Shown here: positions 1 to 39,289 of the stretch, piece by piece | Layout: each line of letters starts with the position of its first letter | How positions within the stretch are numbered: position 1 is the first letter of the stretch | IMG/VR virus record: IMGVR_UViG_3300042122_000061 | Coordinates: 1 to 39,289 of that record | DNA from: a virus | Reading direction: 5' to 3' (one strand) | DNA length: 39,289 nt | Translations under genes and position numbers: made by a program | Notes under the pieces: model-generated | Seen by the model: the letters and a program-made list of their open reading frames with translations, nothing else | Told to the model about the DNA's origin: nothing | The model's database searches: none

Positions 1-339
1 CATGTGGACGCCAACGACTACGCCGGGTTTACGGACCCTAACCGCCGGGCGGAATGGGACGTCCCGGACTTGGTCACGGTCCAAGAGGCCGTGGACGAAT
101 GGTTGAAAGCCGGACGCCGTGAACCGGATGAGCTGCCCCCGGCTTGGGCCGGGGGCGCACGGTTCCGGCTGGTCATAGAGGCCACCGTGGACGCCCACGA
201 ATACCGGGAATTTCTGGCCTCCCATGTCGCCGCCGGGCGGGCCGTTCACGAATCATTCGATGCCCGCATGGATGAGGTGTTCGGCCCGGACGGCGAGCTT
301 ACGACGGTGGAAGTCAAAGCCGTAAGGGTGGTGGACTGA
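1..339 (+). CDS. Hypothetical protein, 5'-truncated by window edge; member of a local paralog family
   Basis: The reading frame is already open at base 1 (codons cat gtg gac), so the true start lies outside the window. The 112 visible codons align without gaps at both ends with the protein encoded at 38689-39165: the first 92 bases and the last 30 or so codons are nearly identical, while the middle has diverged and is four codons shorter. A further relative is encoded at 37370-37864. The protein is acidic, with no recognisable domain, signal peptide or membrane segment. It is followed 2 bp later by the 342-623 gene, the same order as at the right end. This may be a second gene copy or an alternative allele of the right-end gene. 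Function unknown. Confidence 0.75.
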   Translation, partial: HVDANDYAGFTDPNRRAEWDVPDLVTVQEAVDEWLKAGRREPDELPPAWAGGARFRLVIEATVDAHEYREFLASHVAAGRAVHESFDARMDEVFGPDGELTTVEVKAVRVVD

Positions 340-341
340 CC

Positions 342-623
342 ATGGAGACTAACACCAGTTGGATTCATGTTGAGCGGGTAGAGGGGCCTTGGTGGTCCTT
401 TGCCGCCGTCTCCACCTACTTGACCCGGGAGCGGGACCATTGCGCCCGCGCCGCCGCCCGCGCCGTCCTCAAAGGCGATTTGAAACGGGCCAAAGAGGAG
501 GCCCGGGAGTACGCCAAATGGGACGAAAAGGCGGACCGGGCGGACGAACGGTTCGACGCCATGCGGGCGGATTCGGACCGGTGGATAGGTTGGCACCCGG
601 AACGGGAGGGACCGGCCAGGTAG
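342..623 (+). CDS. Small charged hypothetical protein
   Basis: A 93-residue protein starting with ATG 2 bp after the preceding stop, so it is probably translationally coupled. The N-terminal third is rich in Trp and aromatic residues (SWIHVER, PWWSFAA). The rest is strongly charged and probably helical, rich in Ala, Arg, Glu and Lys (residues about 30-75). There are no Cys pairs, signal peptide or membrane segment. The first 122 bases are repeated exactly at the right end of the window (39168-39289), where the gene is cut off. I do not recognise the family. Confidence 0.75.
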   Translation: METNTSWIHVERVEGPWWSFAAVSTYLTRERDHCARAAARAVLKGDLKRAKEEAREYAKWDEKADRADERFDAMRADSDRWIGWHPEREGPAR

Positions 624-4349: not shown

Positions 4350-6407
4350 TTATGGAAGCGCGGGCATTGACGGATTCCAGACCTTGAGGTTCCGGAACTT
4401 GACGGACGCCGTATTGGTTTTTAGCCCTATATAGGTACCGTCCCCATTGACCGGGGCAATGGCGTTTGAGGCCGTGCCCAACAGGACCCCGTCCAGGTAG
4501 ACGGACGCAATGTTGCCGAACTGGACGCAACGCAATTTCTTCCAGACGTTCAGCCCGCCCCAGTTCATGGAGATTTGGAGGGACGCCCGGACGGCGTCCT
4601 GTTCCACCTCCACTTTGTCCGGCGTGGCGTTGGTCATGTGGAGCCGGTACAGGGTGCCGCCCGTGCCCGTCCCGGTGTTGGCCACCACTACGCCCGCTTG
4701 GGTGTCCGCGCCGGCTTGGGCCAGGATCATGATTTCTATATCCACGATGACCGCGCCCGTCAGCATTTTCTTTTTGAGGTAGGCGCGGGACGTGCCGGAC
4801 GTGCTTGTTTGGGTGATTTCGGTCCCGTTGGATGCCCAGGTGCCCGTCCCCACCGTCCAGTCCGTGGTGGTGTTGAACGTTGTTCCGGGCAGGTCCAGGA
4901 CCGTTTCCCACATGGTGGAGCTGCCACCGCCGCCGCCGGCGCTGCCCGGCTTCCAAAGCCCGGCCCCGCCGTCGTAGACCAGGGCGTCCCCGTCCGCCGG
5001 GGCGTCGGCCCCCGCAGACGACACGTCGGCCAACAGGTCCAGGTTCCCCACGACGTCCACCCACCGGGCACCGTTCCATTGGAGCAATGACCCGGTGCCC
5101 GGGGCCGTCAGGTCCACGTCCGCCAGTTCCTCAAGCCTGACTACTGACATAGCCTTGGTTACCGTGATGGGTGAGGCCGCAGCGCCGCCGGACCCGGACC
5201 GTTCGGACGCCCCCAGTTTGTCCAGGAGCCTTTGCATTTTGACGGCCCGGACCTCAAAGCGGCTTTGTAGCGTGGCCTCATACTGGACCACGCCGTCCGC
5301 GTCGATATCGACGGCCAGGCCCATGACTTGGCGCGCCCCCGATTCCGTGTCATCGTCCGGCACTTCCACGCCCACCCAATCATGGACGTTAAAGTCCACG
5401 AACGGGTGACGGCCCTCACGGTCCGGGAGCAGCTTAAGCGTCCGGGACAGGCGTTGATCCTTGGCAAGGCCCAACGTTACGTTGGCCACCGCGGACCGCG
5501 CCGACGCGTCCGACGCGTCCCCGGCGGACACCCACGCGGCGCGCTTGCGCCACTTGGTTGCCGAATCCGTGTCCGCCGCAACAGCCAGGCCGTTGTCCCC
5601 GGAATCGGCATAGACCACGTTAGCCAGTTCCCGGCGGGTGATCTTCCGTTTGTGTTCGCCCTGGCTCCGGTATTGGGTGAAAACCACCGTGTCCTCTAGG
5701 TGGCTTCCGGGGGTCTGCCGGACCTCGAGGGTAAAGCCCGGGAGCATGCGCCAGGACAGTTCATTGGCGTCCGCCCACCGCTTGAGGAGGTCCAGGAGGG
5801 TATCCCCGGCGTTGACGGTCAGGGCTTGAGGCCCGCCCCACGGCTCCGCGGCGGAATCCGCCGCGGCGTCAAAAGACAGGTTCACCCATTCCAGGAACCC
5901 CTCCGCTTGGGCCTCCTCAAACAGTTGGACCCACACGGCCATGGGATGGGCGTTGAACGTCCGGGCCATGGACGTTGGCGTGGGCATTCCCTCCGGTAGG
6001 ACGGGAGCCCATTCGAGGACGGACGCGGTCCCGCGCCCGGCTATGACGGTCTGACGGGGTCCGCCGCCGGACGGGATTATGTCTTCGTCCACGTCTTCCG
6101 CCAGGAATTCGAACCGGACTTGCCCGTCCTCGAGGACTTGCCATAAAGCCTCTTGATCCTGCAGCCGGGTGGATTCCCCAACCGGCAAGGCCCCTTTGAA
6201 AATGCCGTCGTCCGAGTCAAGGGAGACAGTACCGCCGCCCTCCGCGTTGGCGTCCACCGTGAACCCCAGCCCGGAAAAGCGTTCCACCAGGGCCACCGGG
6301 GAAACGTAGTCCCGTTCGGAAAGGACCCTGACCGTCCAGCCCACGCCCTCCAGTGAGGGCGGGGGTAGGACGGTCAGGAAAACGGTATTGCTGTAGTTGA
6401 CCGTCAC
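4350..6407 (-). CDS. Minor tail protein with Gp37-like N-terminus and jelly-roll C-terminal domain
   Basis: A 685-residue tail-tip protein. The N-terminal ~390 residues contain beta-rich segments and an internal region (TLLDLLKRWADANELSWRM) typical of siphovirus ReqiPepy6 Gp37-like tail proteins that sit at the tail tip. A central linker with repeated Ala/Asp-rich segments (LLADVSS..., DALVYDGGAGLWKPGSAGGGGG) leads to a C-terminal ~190-residue domain with a LamG/concanavalin-like pattern (TWASNGTEITQ, VSVYLDGVLLG). That domain is likely to bind host surface glycans. The start overlaps the upstream stop (ATGA type). It is probably the receptor-binding protein or its adaptor. Confidence 0.72.
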   Translation of the reverse strand: MTVNYSNTVFLTVLPPPSLEGVGWTVRVLSERDYVSPVALVERFSGLGFTVDANAEGGGTVSLDSDDGIFKGALPVGESTRLQDQEALWQVLEDGQVRFEFLAEDVDEDIIPSGGGPRQTVIAGRGTASVLEWAPVLPEGMPTPTSMARTFNAHPMAVWVQLFEEAQAEGFLEWVNLSFDAAADSAAEPWGGPQALTVNAGDTLLDLLKRWADANELSWRMLPGFTLEVRQTPGSHLEDTVVFTQYRSQGEHKRKITRRELANVVYADSGDNGLAVAADTDSATKWRKRAAWVSAGDASDASARSAVANVTLGLAKDQRLSRTLKLLPDREGRHPFVDFNVHDWVGVEVPDDDTESGARQVMGLAVDIDADGVVQYEATLQSRFEVRAVKMQRLLDKLGASERSGSGGAAASPITVTKAMSVVRLEELADVDLTAPGTGSLLQWNGARWVDVVGNLDLLADVSSAGADAPADGDALVYDGGAGLWKPGSAGGGGGSSTMWETVLDLPGTTFNTTTDWTVGTGTWASNGTEITQTSTSGTSRAYLKKKMLTGAVIVDIEIMILAQAGADTQAGVVVANTGTGTGGTLYRLHMTNATPDKVEVEQDAVRASLQISMNWGGLNVWKKLRCVQFGNIASVYLDGVLLGTASNAIAPVNGDGTYIGLKTNTASVKFRNLKVWNPSMPALP

Positions 6408-20249: not shown

Positions 20250-21908
20250 TCAAACCACCATTAGAGTCCCGGTTTCGTAAGCGGAAACGGGCACGATTTC
20301 GACCGGCTGTAATACGTCCCACGCCGCGCCGGTTGCGGCCATGAGAGGGGCAGCGCCGTAAGGTGACGCCTTACGGTTCCAGACCCACGCGTCCCCCAGG
20401 GGCTTGGTTACCGCCGTGCCCGCCGCCAGGTCCAGGACCGGCTGGGGCAAGTGCCAAATGCGGACGGGGCGGTCCTCTTCCGTTTCGTTGTTCGCCGGGT
20501 CCGGGGTCCACTGGTGGGCCTTGACGCCGTCATAAAACTTTCCGCAACCCGCGCCCAGGTCCGAACCGCCCCACTCCACCACGGTGACGTGTTCCAATTC
20601 GTTTAGGTCAGCGATCAAACCGGAGGCCGGCGCGCCTCGAGCCTGTACCACCACCCGCAGCGGAGTGGCCGCGCTGGCCCGTTCCCGGCACCAGTCCAGG
20701 ACCCACCCGGACCCGTACCGGGCGGCGACTATTTCAACATGGACCCCGCCGTCCAGGCGTCGGCCAGCGGCGGAAATGAACGTCCGGGTCCGGTCATGTT
20801 CGGTATCAATGCAAAACGTCACCTTGGCGTCCGGCGGAATGGAGGAATCCGGGTCCAGCCCGGCCTCCCAGGACCCGGGAGGGAAAGGACCCTCATTGGT
20901 CCCGTCATTCCACTGGCAAAGAACCTCAGTCCGGAACACCCATTCGGGGTCCGTCTTCCGGGCGGCGGCTATCGCCCGTTCGGTAATCGCGTAGCCCAAC
21001 GACGGGTTAGCCGCGGCCCACCCGTCCCGGTCATCCAGCGAACAGCCCGGCGGGGCGGACCATTCGAAAATGCCCAGGCTATCGTCCTCCGATTCCGGGA
21101 GGTCTTCCGCGATTTCCGGGGGTAGCCCCTCCATGAGTTCCGGGGCCAGGCCGTCCGAGTTAATCCCGTCCGGGTCCCCCAGGGAGGCATGGGCCATTTT
21201 CCGGAGATACCGGAGGACGATGGATGAGGCGTCCCCGGCGTTCGAAAGCGCCAGGATAATGGCCAGGGCGCGGGCCATGGTGGTTTTGGTTATCGCGCCC
21301 CAGGCGTCCCAACTTTGATGCTCCCGCAGCTCATCCAACAGGATGAGGTCCCCGGACAGGCCACGGCCACCACGGCGGGACGCGGTTTGCACTTTGTACC
21401 GTTCCCCGGTGGTCAGGTCCAACGACTTTTTGCCGTTGGTATGGTTTACCTTTTTGATTTCGTCGGCCAGTTCCGGGCAATCCTCCGCGATTTCCACCGC
21501 GCCGGCCCATACCTCTTCCGCAATATCAAGGTTTTGGGCGGTCCCGATGACCAGCCGCGCCGCCCGGACGTACATAAAGAACAGGGCCAGGACTTGGGCA
21601 AGGGTACTCTTGCCATTCTGACGGGCCACCAGGAGGACCACGGTTCGAAACCGGAACGTCTTATCCGGGAGCAGCTCGAGGGCGTGAATCAGAAACCACT
21701 TTTGCCAGGGGAACAGCACCAGCCCCAGGACGTCCTCCGCAAATTCGATGCAAGCGAACCCCGCGGACGTCCGTGGGGTCAGCCGGCGCAACGGCGGGGT
21801 AAAGATTCGGGGGACCTCATGGCCCACCAGGGGCTTAGGCGCGCTTCCGGCCCGTGGATTTCGCGGGGCCACCGCCTTGGACGCTCCGGAGATGGGCAAG
21901 TTTGCCAC
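20250..21908 (-). CDS. Terminase large subunit
   Basis: A DNA-packaging ATPase/nuclease. I chose the GTG at 21908 (552 residues), preceded by GGAATCGGGG; an upstream start at 22040 would overlap the small terminase gene almost entirely, and a later GTG near 21813 is possible. N-terminal ATPase: Walker A near residues 94-102 (VARQNGKST), Walker B near 188-193 (LILLDE). Nuclease domain: VTFCIDTEHDRT supplies the first acidic residues. Conserved phrases IEFAEDVLGLVLFPWQKW and WAAANPSLG support the family. It cuts and packages concatemers with the small subunit and HNH protein. Confidence 0.92.
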   Translation of the reverse strand: MANLPISGASKAVAPRNPRAGSAPKPLVGHEVPRIFTPPLRRLTPRTSAGFACIEFAEDVLGLVLFPWQKWFLIHALELLPDKTFRFRTVVLLVARQNGKSTLAQVLALFFMYVRAARLVIGTAQNLDIAEEVWAGAVEIAEDCPELADEIKKVNHTNGKKSLDLTTGERYKVQTASRRGGRGLSGDLILLDELREHQSWDAWGAITKTTMARALAIILALSNAGDASSIVLRYLRKMAHASLGDPDGINSDGLAPELMEGLPPEIAEDLPESEDDSLGIFEWSAPPGCSLDDRDGWAAANPSLGYAITERAIAAARKTDPEWVFRTEVLCQWNDGTNEGPFPPGSWEAGLDPDSSIPPDAKVTFCIDTEHDRTRTFISAAGRRLDGGVHVEIVAARYGSGWVLDWCRERASAATPLRVVVQARGAPASGLIADLNELEHVTVVEWGGSDLGAGCGKFYDGVKAHQWTPDPANNETEEDRPVRIWHLPQPVLDLAAGTAVTKPLGDAWVWNRKASPYGAAPLMAATGAAWDVLQPVEIVPVSAYETGTLMVV

Positions 21909-23743: not shown

Positions 23744-23770
23744 TAGACGGTCAGCACCTACACTAGACGG
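23744..23770. promoter_or_regulatory. Two direct TAGACGG sites between divergent genes
   Basis: TAGACGGTCAG at 23744-23754 and TAGACGG at 23764-23770, spaced 20 bp start to start, in the gap between the leftward acidic peptide gene and the rightward 23772 gene. The first has the 11-base form CTGACCGTCTA in the leftward direction, 26 bp before the start codon, as at two other leftward genes. The second abuts the GTG of the rightward gene. Both probably control divergent promoters here. Confidence 0.6.
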
Positions 23771-26431: not shown

Positions 26432-26709
26432 TAGTTGAGGCCCGCCGTCCGGGCGCGTTCCATGGCGGACTCTTCCGCCTCTTCCGCGTCCGCGTCCTTA
26501 TCCCACTCCGCGGCCAGGTCTTTGAGGATGGACGCCGCCGCCCGCTTGGATAGCCCGCTGGACCAGGATTCGGCCACCAGGGAGTCCTCCCGGTCCGGGT
26601 GTTGCCGGATGATGACCCCGGCCAGGGCGTGGGTAGCGTCGATTAGGGCGTGTCGGCAGACGTGGCCCGGTTCGCCGTGCTTTGGCTGTTCGGTTGGCTG
26701 TTCGGTCAT
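26431..26709 (-). CDS. Helical acidic hypothetical protein
   Basis: A 92-residue protein. The ATG at 26709 overlaps the upstream stop (ATGA). It contains a His/Cys-containing N-terminal region ([22 protein letters not shown]) and a highly acidic helical C-terminus ([20 protein letters not shown]). Its position immediately before ssb, with a one-base overlap to it, suggests a DNA metabolism role, but no family is recognised. Confidence 0.6.
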
Positions 26710-27122
26710 CGTTTCGTCCTGTTCCATTCGTTGTCCGCTTCCCGCCAAAGGCGGTCCAGGCGGCGGCGTTCGGTCATCGTCAGTAAGACGGCCCGGTCAT
26801 AAACCGAGATGACCCGGGCCGCGGGCGCGGTCCAGGTTTCCACCGTGTCCTCAAAGGACAGGGTCATTTGGCCCACCGGTTCCACCCGGTAGAGGTCCCC
26901 GCGCCCGTACATGGAGGCGTGGAATTTGGCGTACAGCCTTACGGGCGTGAAATAGACGGCCTCCACTTGGGAGGGGCCGTCTATGCCCAGGTGCGCCCCG
27001 CCGGCCTCCCGGGCTTCGCACCAGGGGCAACCCTCATGCTTTTTCCGGGCGTGGCCGGGCGTGAGGAGGTCCCCCACCCGTAAGTCCGGGACCCCGCCGT
27101 GGTAAAAGCCACGGGCGTTCAT
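26706..27122 (-). CDS. Arr-like ADP-ribosyltransferase
   Basis: A 138-residue protein resembling rifampin ADP-ribosyltransferase (Arr). FYHGGVPDLRVGDLLTPG at the N-terminus corresponds to the NAD-binding YYHGT...L.VGDLL.PG region with the expected catalytic His at H8. EAVYFTP holds a likely Tyr (Y57), and GDLYRVEPVG near residues 75-84 matches the RIYVVEPTGP strand. A CPWC pair (32-35) sits in an insertion. The family transfers ADP-ribose from NAD; Arr acts on rifampin, but a phage relative might modify host proteins, nucleic acid or NAD levels. It is unlikely to be an antibiotic resistance gene by design. ATGA-coupled on both sides. Confidence 0.72.
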   Translation of the reverse strand: MNARGFYHGGVPDLRVGDLLTPGHARKKHEGCPWCEAREAGGAHLGIDGPSQVEAVYFTPVRLYAKFHASMYGRGDLYRVEPVGQMTLSFEDTVETWTAPAARVISVYDRAVLLTMTERRRLDRLWREADNEWNRTKR

Positions 27123-27982: not shown

Positions 27983-27993
27983 TAGACGGTCAG
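27983..27993 (-). promoter_or_regulatory. CTGACCGTCTA operator/promoter-like site
   Basis: Leftward reading CTGACCGTCTAAAAACG, 21 bp upstream of the 27962 ATG, in the 49-bp gap 27963-28011. Same 11-mer as at 25893-25903 and 23744-23754. Probable control point for the 27962 to 27119 gene chain. Confidence 0.55.
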
Positions 27994-28011: not shown

Positions 28012-28248
28012 CTAGCATGCGGAAATTTCCGAAATGTTCGGGGCGGGCAACGCCGCCAATTGGATCATGCCCACGGCCACGCGCTCGAGGAGCGCGGCGG
28101 GCAATGGCTCATCCCCGGCGTCAACATTGACACAAACCCCGTCCTCATCCGTCCACGATGACGTCAGGACCACCCGCCGGCTACCCGCGTTGAATTCCTT
28201 TTCCGGACCCAGGGCGAACCCGTCCGCAACTGCCCGCCATACAGTCAT
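28012..28248 (-). CDS. Hypothetical protein, 78 aa
   Basis: A 78-residue protein with an alpha/beta pattern (TVWRAVADGFALGPEKEFNAG, RRVVLTSSWTDEDGVCVNVDAG, PAALLERVAVGMIQLAALP). Start ATG at 28248 has GGGAAAGGG upstream. It begins a transcript just downstream of a non-coding gap holding several TAGAC sites. Family not recognised. Confidence 0.6.
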   Translation of the reverse strand: MTVWRAVADGFALGPEKEFNAGSRRVVLTSSWTDEDGVCVNVDAGDEPLPAALLERVAVGMIQLAALPAPNISEISAC

Positions 28249-28274: not shown

Positions 28275-28341
28275 CCGTCTACGTTTTATAGACCTTCCGT
28301 TAATCTAGTCGCATACCCGCGGGTAAGGACACCCCCGTCTA
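28275..28341. promoter_or_regulatory. Operator/promoter region upstream of the 28248 gene
   Basis: The gap 28249-28390 holds CCGTCTA at 28275-28281, TAGACC at 28289-28294, and CCGTCTA at 28335-28341. A TCTATAAAA run reading leftward near 28284-28292 could be a -10 element for the leftward gene. The region has no supported gene. Three motif copies in 70 bp suggest regulated promoters here. Confidence 0.55.
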
Positions 28342-33830: not shown

Positions 33831-34066
33831 GTCTAAACCTTTCGGAACCGTCGTCTAAATCCTTTAGACGTTCCGAACATAGCAGCGCGTCCCCCAAGGG
33901 GGCAAACACCTTGGGGGGCCAGCCGGCGCGGCGTGGGACACCCGGGCGTCTAATTTGTCCGGGCCTCATGGTATGTCGTTGCTAGACGGGCACCGTCTAG
34001 AACTTATAGACTCTCAAATGTTATGCAGGGGGAACCGACGTCAAGTCTTGAAACCAGGGAGCAAAC
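33831..34066. promoter_or_regulatory. Divergent regulatory region with inverted TAGAC operators
   Basis: 236 bp between divergent HTH genes. It holds a CGTCTAAA-TCC-TTTAGACG inverted repeat (33852-33870), GTCTA at 33831-33835 next to the leftward start, CGTCTAAT at 33947, and a perfect TAGACGG-GCA-CCGTCTA inverted repeat at 33983-33999. TTATAGACT at 34005-34013 can be a -10 for the rightward gene, with a -35-like TTGCTA at 33979; the 17-bp palindrome would lie between them. A rightward ATG is preceded by GCAGGGGGA. The arrangement is like a lysis/lysogeny switch. Confidence 0.75.
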
Positions 34067-34447
34067 ATGACGAACACCGATAAGCCATTGAATCTACGGG
34101 ACCTTATTTTGGCCCACCAGGACAGGACCGGGGATTCATATTCCATGCTGGCCAGCCGGTGCGACCTGTCCAAGGCAAAGATTGGCCAGTTGGCCACGGC
34201 CAAACAAAACCACATGCCCCGGGCGCACACTCTGGAGCAACTGGCCAAGGGCATGAACCTGCCCCTAAAGACCGTCCAGCAAGCCGCCATGGTGTCCGCC
34301 GGAATCACTCCGGAGGGTTACCCCGGGGGCAACCGAATTGACCTAGTCATTGAGTCGTTGCGGGGGCTATCCCCGGATGACTTGGAAACCGTGTCAATCG
34401 TCATCCAGTCGCTAAAGGACCGCCGGACGTTGCGGCCCGCATCTTAG
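34067..34447 (+). CDS. Putative immunity repressor (HTH)
   Basis: A 126-residue protein transcribed opposite to the lytic genes. The N-terminal part has an XRE-like HTH (RDLILAHQDRTGDSYSMLAS, RCDLSKAKIGQLATAKQNHM), followed by HTLEQLAKGMNLPLKTVQQA, a pattern shared by HTH proteins in many temperate actinophages. The C-terminal part is a small acidic helix region (LVIESLRGLSPDDLETVSIVIQ). Its promoter overlaps a perfect TAGACGG inverted repeat, consistent with autoregulation, and a strong terminator follows. It is the best candidate for the protein that reads the dispersed TAGAC sites, which is not shown. Confidence 0.7.
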   Translation: MTNTDKPLNLRDLILAHQDRTGDSYSMLASRCDLSKAKIGQLATAKQNHMPRAHTLEQLAKGMNLPLKTVQQAAMVSAGITPEGYPGGNRIDLVIESLRGLSPDDLETVSIVIQSLKDRRTLRPAS

Positions 34448-35443: not shown

Positions 35444-35833
35444 CTACCCCCGGGGCTTTCGCCCGTTGTGGATGAGCTGCCGGCGGGGCGTTGCCTTGAG
35501 TATCCGGAGCCAATGGGCGTGGCCCCGGCGGGCGGACGCCAGGGTGGGGTATCGGTCACAGGCCCCGTCCAGGGGTCCGCCAAAGACCATGGTTTCGAAC
35601 AGGACGGGCGGGGCACCCGGCCAACCTACCCCCATGTCCATGCCCATAAAGACGGTGGACACCCGGCCCCGGTTGCCCAGGTCATCCAGGCCCACCTGAC
35701 GGTCCCCCATCCAAATTTCCACGTACCGGTCCCGGTCCACGGGTTTGCCGTCCCAGTCGAAATAGAGGCCCCGGCCCATAAAGTCCAGCAAGGCGTCCGG
35801 GTGCCATTTGGCCATGTATTCGTCTTGGTTCAC
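35444..35833 (-). CDS. Hypothetical protein, 129 aa
   Basis: The GTG at 35833 is contiguous with a CACCGTCTAAT site, so the start codon is inside the operator-like motif and the message may be leaderless. The product begins MNQDEYMAKWHPDALLDFMG, then VEIWMGDRQVGLDDLGNRGRVSTV, then FETMVFGGPLDGACDRYPTLA. It resembles widespread actinophage proteins of unknown function. It points away from parA, sharing a divergent control region with it. Confidence 0.65.
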   Translation of the reverse strand: MNQDEYMAKWHPDALLDFMGRGLYFDWDGKPVDRDRYVEIWMGDRQVGLDDLGNRGRVSTVFMGMDMGVGWPGAPPVLFETMVFGGPLDGACDRYPTLASARRGHAHWLRILKATPRRQLIHNGRKPRG

Positions 35834-35839: not shown

Positions 35840-35855
35840 ATAATAAAGGACTGTT

Positions 35856-35887
35856 TACGGGGGTACGGGAGTACGGGGACCCGTATA
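35856..35887. repeat. Left centromere-like octamer array (parS-L candidate)
   Basis: Four consecutive octamers: TACGGGGG, TACGGGAG, TACGGGGA and the inverted CCCGTATA, at 35856, 35864, 35872 and 35880. They share the CCCGTA/TACGGG core with the much larger array after parB. The last unit overlaps TATAAAGT, a likely -10 for parA, so a ParB protein bound here could repress its own operon as well as mark the plasmid for partition. Confidence 0.75.
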
Positions 35888-35898
35888 AAGTACAGGCC

Positions 35899-36540
35899 AT
35901 GACACCCCTAACTATTGCCGTTGCCAATCTGAAAGGCGGGACGGGGAAAACCACGTCCGCGGCCTACCTTGCCCAGGCGTTCCGGGAACTGGACCGGTCC
36001 GTCCTCATAGTGGATGCAGACCCCCAGGAGTCCATAACCGAGTGGTCCGAACTTTCGGAATGGACGGTGCCCACCGTGGCCCACCCGTCCAAGCTCTTGC
36101 ACCGTCAAGTGACCGGGATTGCCCGGGGCAAGTTTGACGTGGTCCTCATTGACACCCCGCCCTTTTACCCCCGTTCCAAAGAGGAGGCCGAAAAGCCCCC
36201 GGTGGGTATCGTCCATTCGGCCCTCAAGTCCGCGGACGTCGTGGTGGTGCCCATGGCCCCTACCCTTATTGAGCTACGCCGGGTTGCCCCCACACTGAAA
36301 GCCATTGAGACGGCGGGCCGTCCGGGCCAGGACGTTTGGTTCCTGTTGAACCGGACGGTCAACCGGGCCGGGTCCACGGACGGCGTCCGGAACGTGTTGG
36401 TCAATCAGATGGGGGTCCGGGTGTTCGCCGTGGGTATCCCCCGGCTTGAGGTGCTGGCCCAATCATTTGCCGCGCCCATCACGGGCAACCTACACGGCTA
36501 CCTTTCCGCAGCTATCGAACTTTTGGAGGAACGAAAATGA
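35899..36540 (+). CDS. parA: ParA-family partition ATPase
   Basis: A 213-residue deviant Walker ATPase: KGGTGKTTS at residues 12-20 (with the signature Lys), VLIVDADPQES (35-45) and FDVVLIDTPP (79-88). There is no N-terminal HTH extension, so it is the short ParA type that pairs with a small ribbon-helix-helix ParB. It would use ATP-dependent DNA binding to segregate the phage-plasmid. The start is 12 bp past the left octamer array. It overlaps the next gene by ATGA. With no integrase visible, this is the main evidence for extrachromosomal maintenance. Confidence 0.93.
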   Translation: MTPLTIAVANLKGGTGKTTSAAYLAQAFRELDRSVLIVDADPQESITEWSELSEWTVPTVAHPSKLLHRQVTGIARGKFDVVLIDTPPFYPRSKEEAEKPPVGIVHSALKSADVVVVPMAPTLIELRRVAPTLKAIETAGRPGQDVWFLLNRTVNRAGSTDGVRNVLVNQMGVRVFAVGIPRLEVLAQSFAAPITGNLHGYLSAAIELLEERK

Positions 36541-36827
36541 GCAAGAATTTTGACGCCCGCCTGTCCGTCGTGACGGCCCCCACGGACCCGCCGGCTACCC
36601 CGGCGGTCCAGCCCCGGACGGCCCCGGTCAAAATGACGGTGGAGGTTGACCGGGCGGCGTATGAATTCGTCCGCAGCTTCCCGGACGCCATGGGTCTGCC
36701 GGACGCCTTGGGCCTAAACCGGGTCCCCACGGTGGAGGTGTACCGGGCTTTGCTCCAGTTGCTTGAGGAGGACCCGGACCTGGCTGGCAGGGTGGCCCAC
36801 CGGATGAGGCAGAACCTCACCCCGTAG
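36537..36827 (+). CDS. parB: Small ParB-type centromere-binding protein
   Basis: A 96-residue protein in an ATGA overlap with parA. The N-terminal ~35 residues are Pro/Thr-rich and probably disordered; the rest contains VKMTVEVDRAAYEFVRSFPDAM and VPTVEVYRALLQLLEEDPDLA, a strand-helix-helix pattern as in ribbon-helix-helix partition proteins. It is too short for a canonical ParB/Spo0J. Its stop lies inside the first octamer of the right array, so gene and site are physically joined. It likely binds CCCGTA octamers. Confidence 0.8.
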   Translation: MSKNFDARLSVVTAPTDPPATPAVQPRTAPVKMTVEVDRAAYEFVRSFPDAMGLPDALGLNRVPTVEVYRALLQLLEEDPDLAGRVAHRMRQNLTP

Positions 36828-37036
36828 GCCCGTACTCCCGTATTGCCTTATATACGGGGACCCGTGGAACCGTAGGCCCGTACTCCCGTATATACGGGGT
36901 TACGGGCCTTTCCCATGGTCAAAGGGCGTCCGCCAGGCCGGGCATTGGTACGGGTCCCCGTACTCCCGTAGGCCCGTAAAGCCGGGTCCCCGTGCCCCCG
37001 TATATAAGGGGTTACGGGAATACGGGAATCCGTACT
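36821..37036. repeat. Right centromere-like array of phased octamers (parS-R candidate)
   Basis: The array is organised in one 8-bp register over 27 units. Exact CCCGTA or TACGGG cores occur at 36821, 36829, 36837, 36853, 36877, 36885, 36893, 36901, 36949, 36957, 36965, 36973, 36997, 37013 and 37021 (15 units). One-mismatch units occur at 36861, 36869, 36989, 37005 and 37029. The 40-bp break at 36909-36948 keeps the register (five units). Both orientations are used. This is the pattern of contiguous ribbon-helix-helix binding sites in plasmid and phage centromeres. Confidence 0.88.
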
Positions 37037-38688: not shown

Positions 38689-39165
38689 ATGAGTTCCGAA
38701 CGTTCGCCCTTTGAAATCGCCGCCGCCATTGCCGATATGAAAACCGAGATTTTGCGGGACATTGAGGCCGGGACTATCCCGGCTGACGTCCCGGACTTTG
38801 TGGCCCTCCATGACCATGTGGACGCCAACGACTACGCCGGGTTTACGGACCCTAACCGCCGGGCGGAATGGGACGTCCCGGACTTGGTCACGGTCCAAGA
38901 GGCCGTAGACGCTTGGCTCAAGATGGGCCGTCAGGAATTGGGAGAGGACGGCCTACCCCCGGCATGGGTGGGCGGGCGTATCCGGTTGGTCATTGAGGCA
39001 ACCGTGGACCTTGAGGACTACCGGGAATTTCTGGAGGCTCATAAGGCTGGCCCATGGCCCCGGGACATTCACGAATCATTCGATGCCCGCATGGATGAGG
39101 TGTTCGGCCCGGACGGTTCCGAACTTACGACGGTGGAAGTCAAAGCCGTTCGGGTGGTGCTTTGA
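38689..39165 (+). CDS. Paralog-family hypothetical protein (full-length)
   Basis: A 158-residue acidic protein, ATG at 38689. The N-terminal half (IAAAIADMKTEILRDIEAGT, then IPADVPDFVALHDHVDANDY) is related to the 37370-37864 protein. Residues from about 43 on are the homologue of the truncated left-end gene (1-339), with near-identical ends and a diverged middle. No catalytic motif, membrane segment or signal peptide seen. The family is unknown; three related sequences in one window suggest recent duplication or allelic variation. Confidence 0.72.
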   Translation: MSSERSPFEIAAAIADMKTEILRDIEAGTIPADVPDFVALHDHVDANDYAGFTDPNRRAEWDVPDLVTVQEAVDAWLKMGRQELGEDGLPPAWVGGRIRLVIEATVDLEDYREFLEAHKAGPWPRDIHESFDARMDEVFGPDGSELTTVEVKAVRVVL

Positions 39166-39289
39166 CCATGGAGACTAACACCAGTTGGATTCATGTTGAG
39201 CGGGTAGAGGGGCCTTGGTGGTCCTTTGCCGCCGTCTCCACCTACTTGACCCGGGAGCGGGACCATTGCGCCCGCGCCGCCGCCCGCGC
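39163..39289 (+). repeat. Exact 127-base copy of 337-463 at the window end
   Basis: Bases 39163-39289 match 337-463 without a difference, by my count. The base just before differs (T at 39162, C at 336). Upstream, 38815-39162 is a diverged relative of 1-336. If the overlap closes a circle, the circle is 464-39289, 38,826 bp, and 1-336 is an alternative sequence for 38815-39162. Confidence 0.85.
39168..39289 (+). CDS. Second copy (3'-truncated) of the 342-623 gene
   Basis: The last 122 bases are identical to the first 122 bases of the 342-623 gene and are cut by the window end. ATG lies 2 bp after the preceding stop, as at the left end. It is either a true duplicate or, more likely, the same gene met again through the circular or graph overlap. 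Confidence 0.7.
   Translation, partial: METNTSWIHVERVEGPWWSFAAVSTYLTRERDHCARAAAR

Follow-up and report, generated by a model that had tools for sequence, protein, structure and literature searches.

A dispersed 17-bp dyad as the predicted operator of the immunity repressor in a temperate phage related to cluster-AS Arthrobacter phages

The non-coding gaps of the 39,289-base virus record analysed here (the whole stretch, henceforth called the window) carry dispersed copies of a 17-bp dyad, one half of which is the heptamer TAGACGG. As judged from sequence comparison, this motif is very probably the operator of the phage immunity repressor encoded at 34067-34447, dispersed over five gaps, where the bound repressor would block promoter initiation. 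The structural genes of the window share about 75% DNA identity with those of the cluster-AS phages Andrew, Cupello, and Kuleana, and the dyad recurs in these phages and in more distant relatives.

Distribution of the heptamer TAGACGG

On both strands of the window, TAGACGG was found 18 times, with about 4.5 copies expected from base composition. Eleven of these positions had been listed in an earlier note on this DNA (675, 699, 23744, 23764, 25893, 27983, 28275, 28335, 33983, 33993, and 35833) and are exact, as are its related TAGAC forms (22190, 33852-33870, and 34007) and its three copies of the 11-mer CTGACCGTCTA (23744, 25893, and 27983); the seven copies that it omitted are mostly coding (4498, 8288, 9096, 24264, 26953, 26977, and 28791). 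The gaps make up 9-11% of the window, depending on the gene map used. With a map based on codon usage, 12 of the 18 copies were located in the non-coding ~11% (binomial p 2e-8), and after two extra genes had been taken out of the gaps, 11 copies remained there, whereas a first-order Markov null predicted 0.31 and never exceeded 3 in 1000 runs. Both calculations bear out the claimed concentration in gaps, i.e., the densities in coding and non-coding DNA are unequal. TAG words are generally scarcer in coding DNA, and the enrichment could be ascribed to chance, arising from A+T-rich gaps and from the avoidance of stop codons in genes. However, shuffled TAG words of the same composition as TAGACGG showed no enrichment, so stop-codon avoidance fails as an explanation, and both causes were rejected based on the permuted words and the Markov null. 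As the exact spacing and the conservation across genera described below also speak against it, next to no weight is given to chance.

The 17-bp dyad

The true unit is a mirror-symmetric element of 17 bp, GTCTA-N7-TAGAC, with TAGACGG representing one half. Convergent GTCTA/TAGAC pairs at exactly 7 bp were counted 51 times in the window and the relatives compared at that stage, and all other convergent spacings in the same set occurred 0-3 times each, except for 28-29 bp, an excess caused by neighbouring sites. A position weight matrix (PWM) was trained on 35 distinct sites from cluster-AS Arthrobacter phages, with the window left out of training, and returned six window sites of at least 12 bits and 0 matches at this threshold in 30 simulated sequences. 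All six sites are non-coding and spread over five gaps, and three of them carry one or two mismatches. They are given below in order of decreasing score, followed by a weak match (all unstranded).

33995-34011, dyad GTCTAGAACTTATAGAC at the predicted repressor promoter, 23.3 bits
28277-28293, dyad GTCTACGTTTTATAGAC upstream of the leftward gene 28012-28248, including TATAAA on the minus strand, 21.9 bits
33853-33869, dyad GTCTAAATCCTTTAGAC before the leftward (lytic) operon led by the Cro-like gene, 16.6 bits
25881-25897, dyad GTACACGAAAACTAGAC in the gap downstream of the SSB gene, two mismatches, 14.8 bits
35835-35851, dyad GTCTAATAATAAAGGAC between gene 35444-35833 and parA, two mismatches, 12.8 bits
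22178-22194, dyad GTCCATAAGGACTAGAC, cos-proximal and ahead of the structural operon, one mismatch, 12.3 bits
22970-22986, weak dyad GTCTAGTCAAGCTGGAC, 6.0 bits, with an identical 17-mer in the relative G001 at 747

The halves of the dyad are 12 bp apart, i.e., about one helical turn, and we infer that a repressor dimer probably binds the 17 bp, with each helix-turn-helix (HTH) reading one TAGAC half.

Conservation in relatives

According to the earlier note, absence of the motif from the corresponding gaps of relatives would refute the proposal; sites were, however, found in the matching gaps of the relatives. In the eight annotated AS genomes, most dyads are located in the same gaps as in the window, namely on either side of the immunity region, upstream of the 28012 homologue, after SSB, and in some genomes upstream of gene 1. 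The ParA-type relatives G001 (38,751 b) and G002 (40,535 b) likewise carry dyads at matching places. Considering the places individually, the dyad at the repressor promoter (33995 in the window) occupies the same place in all 19 loci aligned, and the place of 33853 holds a perfect dyad in L004, L005, L016, L018, L019, L020, and the AS phages. The dyad upstream of gene 28012 is kept in the AS phages, L019, L020, L024, L031, and L033, and that of the SSB gap was also found in the AS phages, G001, G002, and L024. In G001, the counterpart of the cos-proximal dyad occupies the matching place and scores 16.2 bits; LittleTokyo, Kuleana, and Kepler carry the dyad at position 65-66, and G002 is without it. 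For the dyad on the parA side (35835), no counterpart was found in the AS phages, and near its place L004, L018, and L020 have half-sites alone.

Of 15 other loci, 14 have a perfect or one-mismatch dyad before the repressor, even where the latter is no more than 38% identical; none was found before the repressor of L032 (41% identical). One same-type prophage, carrying repressor, integrase, Cro-like gene, and three dyads, comes from another actinobacterial genus (L017, Nocardioides pini contig NZ_JAPPUX010000003.1), and in the 4.5 Mb genome of this organism the perfect dyad occurs three times, always within one and the same 7.2-kb stretch of the repressor-bearing prophage. In a reverse scan, 13 of the 15 viral contigs with GTCTATAAAWYGTAGACG were relatives of the window phage, and the remaining two, both A+T-rich, are probably chance matches. 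The same was concluded for many matches to the 15-base pattern CCGTCTANNNNNTATAGACT, which were set aside as A+T-rich viral contigs with a single dyad; homologues of window genes were absent from these contigs, except for a weak one in L039.

Two dyad-like matches were additionally observed in AS phages. GTCTAGG..GTGGAC is located directly beside a tRNA-like sequence (e.g., L011 20695, L008 20331, L006 20309) and may be either a repressor site or an integrase arm site; the attP of Galaxy has been published at 20,716-20,755 (PMC5513430). Another match, with 7-15 bits, lies inside the HTH gene just before RusA (e.g., L008 27571, L012 28961, L011 27381), recurs in all eight annotated AS genomes, and may reflect coding constraint or an internal operator.

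The repressor as likely binder

Two divergent HTH genes flank the gap that holds the dyads at 33853 and 33995.

34067-34447, plus strand, immunity repressor of 126 aa with XRE-type HTH, identified by homology to Arthrobacter phage repressors
33576-33830, minus strand, Cro-like HTH protein (Pfam HTH_3, 7e-11), first gene of the leftward operon

The 34067 protein is 50-57% identical over about 90% of its length to 37 Arthrobacter phage records, most of which are annotated as "immunity repressor." The early operon headed by the Cro-like gene encodes an exonuclease, RecT, a methyltransferase, RusA, and SSB. For the repressor, the predicted structure (mean pLDDT 83.7) consists of an N-terminal helical XRE domain and C-terminal helices, with DdrO, SinR, 434, and P22 c2 among the nearest solved folds, and neither the domain search nor the structure model revealed a second DNA-binding domain. 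A protein of 126 aa could also hardly accommodate a LexA-like cleavable domain.

Both proteins had been named as candidate binders in the earlier note. Across 15 loci with repressors 36-80% identical to that of the window, the recognition helix of the repressor (SKAKIGQ) is nearly invariant, reading LSKAK-I/V-GQL with one K-to-R change. The recognition helix of the Cro-like protein varies among relatives (SKPTIGN, SHGTINN, SHQTVQN, SKALIGQ, and SRSAINN). Since the repressor helix and the operator are both near-constant and the Cro-like helix is variable, the 34067 immunity repressor is the likely binder of the dyad. The Cro-like gene always adjoins the repressor in the same divergent region, and one could envisage that the dyad is bound mainly by the 33576 protein, or by both proteins as in lambda CI/Cro, but the Cro-like helix varies widely while the dyad remains unchanged, and we regard this as unlikely. 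The 33576 protein is hence disfavoured as main binder and the 34067 protein retained, and weaker binding of the dyad by the Cro-like protein alongside the repressor could still occur.

Promoter elements at the dyads

At the repressor promoter, the right half of the dyad reads TAGACT in 19 of 19 loci and is proposed to be the -10 of the repressor gene; TAGACG or TGGACG is found 17-18 bp upstream of it in 18 of the 19. In the window, this upstream element is a third half-site.

33983-33989, plus strand, half-site TAGACGG, 18 bp upstream of the proposed -10

This half-site is probably a -35-like element of the repressor promoter, and its reading as a second, overlapping operator was disfavoured because a -35 is the better match for an element lying 17-18 bp from the -10. 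With -10- and -35-like elements within or near the dyad, the repressor should therefore shut its own promoter too, and since several dyads overlap apparent -10 elements (TAGACT, TATAAA), a block of initiation is the likely mode of action. Binding of the dyads would stop initiation at early and late lytic promoters, and binding at 33995 would autoregulate the repressor. A scan of the immunity region for consensus sigma-70 promoters with E. coli-type rules returned no promoter, and a scan of the same region for terminator-like structures was negative, so that a terminator or RNA hairpin reading of the motif was rejected.

The half-sites could alternatively be mainly promoter hexamers, with TAGACG as -35 and TAGACT as -10 and no need for a dedicated repressor, which would agree with the arrangement of TRGACG and TAGACT at 17/18 bp in 18 of 19 loci at the repressor promoter. 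Promoter hexamers, however, give no reason to expect a palindromic partner exactly 7 bp away, and dyads also occur where a -35/-10 pair was not seen, as downstream of SSB; this alternative is considered very improbable. With the dyads read as operators, the repressor would very probably keep the virus dormant through them by ordinary means.

Comparison with cluster A stoperators

The heptamers had been proposed to form an operator/stoperator network analogous to that of cluster A mycobacteriophages. The comparison strongly favours a dispersed operator network, in the form of a symmetric dyad, whereas the stoperator analogy did not hold up. Cluster A stoperators are asymmetric 13-mers whose orientation follows transcription, and the protein that binds them is a monomer with two DNA-binding domains (PMC9283540). 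As in cluster A phages (L5, TipsytheTRex), the predicted repressor sites of the window are located in gaps over the whole genome. If a monomeric repressor halted elongating RNA polymerase at asymmetric TAGACGG-type sites, as in cluster A, dispersal in short gaps would be in line with it, as would the shared orientation of the three CTGACCGTCTA copies in the leftward operon. The well-conserved sites, in contrast, are symmetric dyads with exact 7-bp spacing and without orientation, several of them at promoter-like elements, and solitary half-sites flip orientation in G001 and G002. In addition, the cluster A repressor combines an HTH with a Stoperator domain in ~183 aa, an architecture not found in the window repressor with its one HTH in 126 aa and its SinR/DdrO-like fold. 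Because of the symmetry, the promoter overlap, the unconserved orientation, and the missing second DNA-binding domain, the stoperator reading is unsupported; it was rejected for the main sites on the grounds of symmetry, orientation, and the single-domain repressor, and as a whole it is quite improbable.

Solitary and wide half-sites

Half-sites at four places are unaccounted for by the standard dyad.

677-703, unstranded, wide pair GTCTA-N17-TAGAC, located upstream of gene 720-1076; its spacer exceeds that of the standard dyad by one helical turn
23744-23770, plus strand, two solitary TAGACGG 20 bp apart; in G001, half-sites occur in the same gap in opposite orientation
27983-27993, plus strand, solitary half-site TAGACGGTCAG; G001 keeps TAGACGGTCAGG in the corresponding gap, at 5736
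28335-28341, minus strand, solitary TAGACGG (exact match); TAGACC occurs at a similar place in L019

L004 and L019 keep the wide pair with the same N17 spacer, and L020 has it with N18; since this pair and the half-site at 27983 (kept in G001) are conserved, they are probably real elements. It is conceivable, if doubtful, that the wide pair together with the half-sites at 27983 and 23744/23764 constitutes a second class of repressor site acting by looping, cooperative spreading, or roadblocking. If true, a dimeric repressor with a single HTH would thereby gain stoperator-like, genome-wide silencing. An inverted TAGACGG pair was further noted at 26953-26983 (longer stem 26944-26987); as it lies within the open reading frame 26706-27122 and the matching gene of G001 is without a copy, it is probably a coding coincidence.

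Partition region and phage setting

In cluster AS, an integrase gene adjoins the repressor. In the window and in five relatives (L004, L016, L018, L019, and L020), ParA and a small partner are found instead, and downstream of the window repressor the genes 34724, 35444, and parA follow, with no integrase in the repressor neighbourhood. The features of this region, a candidate parABS partition system at 35854-37033 where AS phages have the integrase, are as follows.

35854-35898, unstranded, CCCGTA-type repeats left of parA, forming a 45-nt inverted repeat (82%) with 36936-36980; candidate centromere or operator
35899-36540, plus strand, ParA-like partition ATPase (PHROG 164, 6e-33)
36537-36827, plus strand, small protein overlapping parA, conserved beside ParA in L004, L016, L018, and L019 and more weakly in L020; probable ParB-type partner
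36821-37033, unstranded, CCCGTAnn repeats (repeat family D1) at multiples of 8 bp, right of parAB; candidate centromere

The ParA of the window is 32-36% identical to ParA of cluster A and Gordonia phages, and the 36537 protein had no family match among the Pfam and PHROG profiles. Some cluster A lineages rely on parABS in place of the integrase. Identical stretches of ~90 and ~125 bases, on either side of a diverged stretch that is paralogous or strain-variant, are shared by the ends of the window (1-463 and 38815-39289), which suggests that the genome is circular or terminally redundant, with ~38.8 kb and a variant bubble. The phage is probably a partitioned plasmid prophage. Its rightward, probably lysogenic operon also encodes an Lsr2-type DNA-binding protein (1069-1608), which is kept in L004, L019, and L020.

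Relation to other immunity systems

The closest functional parallel is the repressor network of mycobacteriophage BPs (cluster G), in which gp33 has palindromic binding sites in five regulatory regions across the genome and controls four promoters (PMC4557955). Both systems have a small repressor divergent from an early lytic gene and dispersed palindromic sites, which in the window are candidate operators. A full BPs operator consists of two palindromes of 12 bp each, of which one is degenerate, and has a variable spacer, whereas the dyad of the window measures 17 bp and its 7-bp spacer is fixed; moreover, BPs immunity is integration-dependent, and the window is without an integrase beside the repressor. 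For the AS relative Galaxy, the arrangement of repressor and integrase has been likened to integration-dependent immunity systems, and the phage was reported to be without attP in the repressor gene and without degradation tags.

As in lambda CI, P22 c2, and 434, dyads in the window would be read by an XRE-type HTH, the repressor and Cro-like genes are divergent, and autoregulation is likely. The operators of lambda are confined to OL and OR (PMC4557955), whereas those predicted in the window extend over about five gaps. Cluster-AS phages (Andrew, Kuleana, Galaxy, Kepler, and LittleTokyo) share with the window the repressor family, the dyad, most operator positions, and the structural and early genes.

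Implications

In the literature searched, no published description of these operators and no binding data for them were found; annotated "immunity repressor" genes of AS-type phages are reported there, and a binding site for them was not found. As far as searched, dispersed networks of immunity operators are thus known as a kind, and this operator and its extent are new. The analysis provides a precise predicted operator that applies to immunity in a whole group of temperate Arthrobacter phages and also in related phages, whose repressors can be as little as 38% identical and which extend into Nocardioides. From this operator, regulated promoters and homoimmunity groups can be predicted, and the dyad motif allows prophages of the same type to be found from DNA. 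Taken with the gene content beside the repressor, it suggests that one immunity circuit is combined with two modes of inheritance, by integrase or by ParA partition, a duality that parallels cluster A mycobacteriophages while the operator logic differs.
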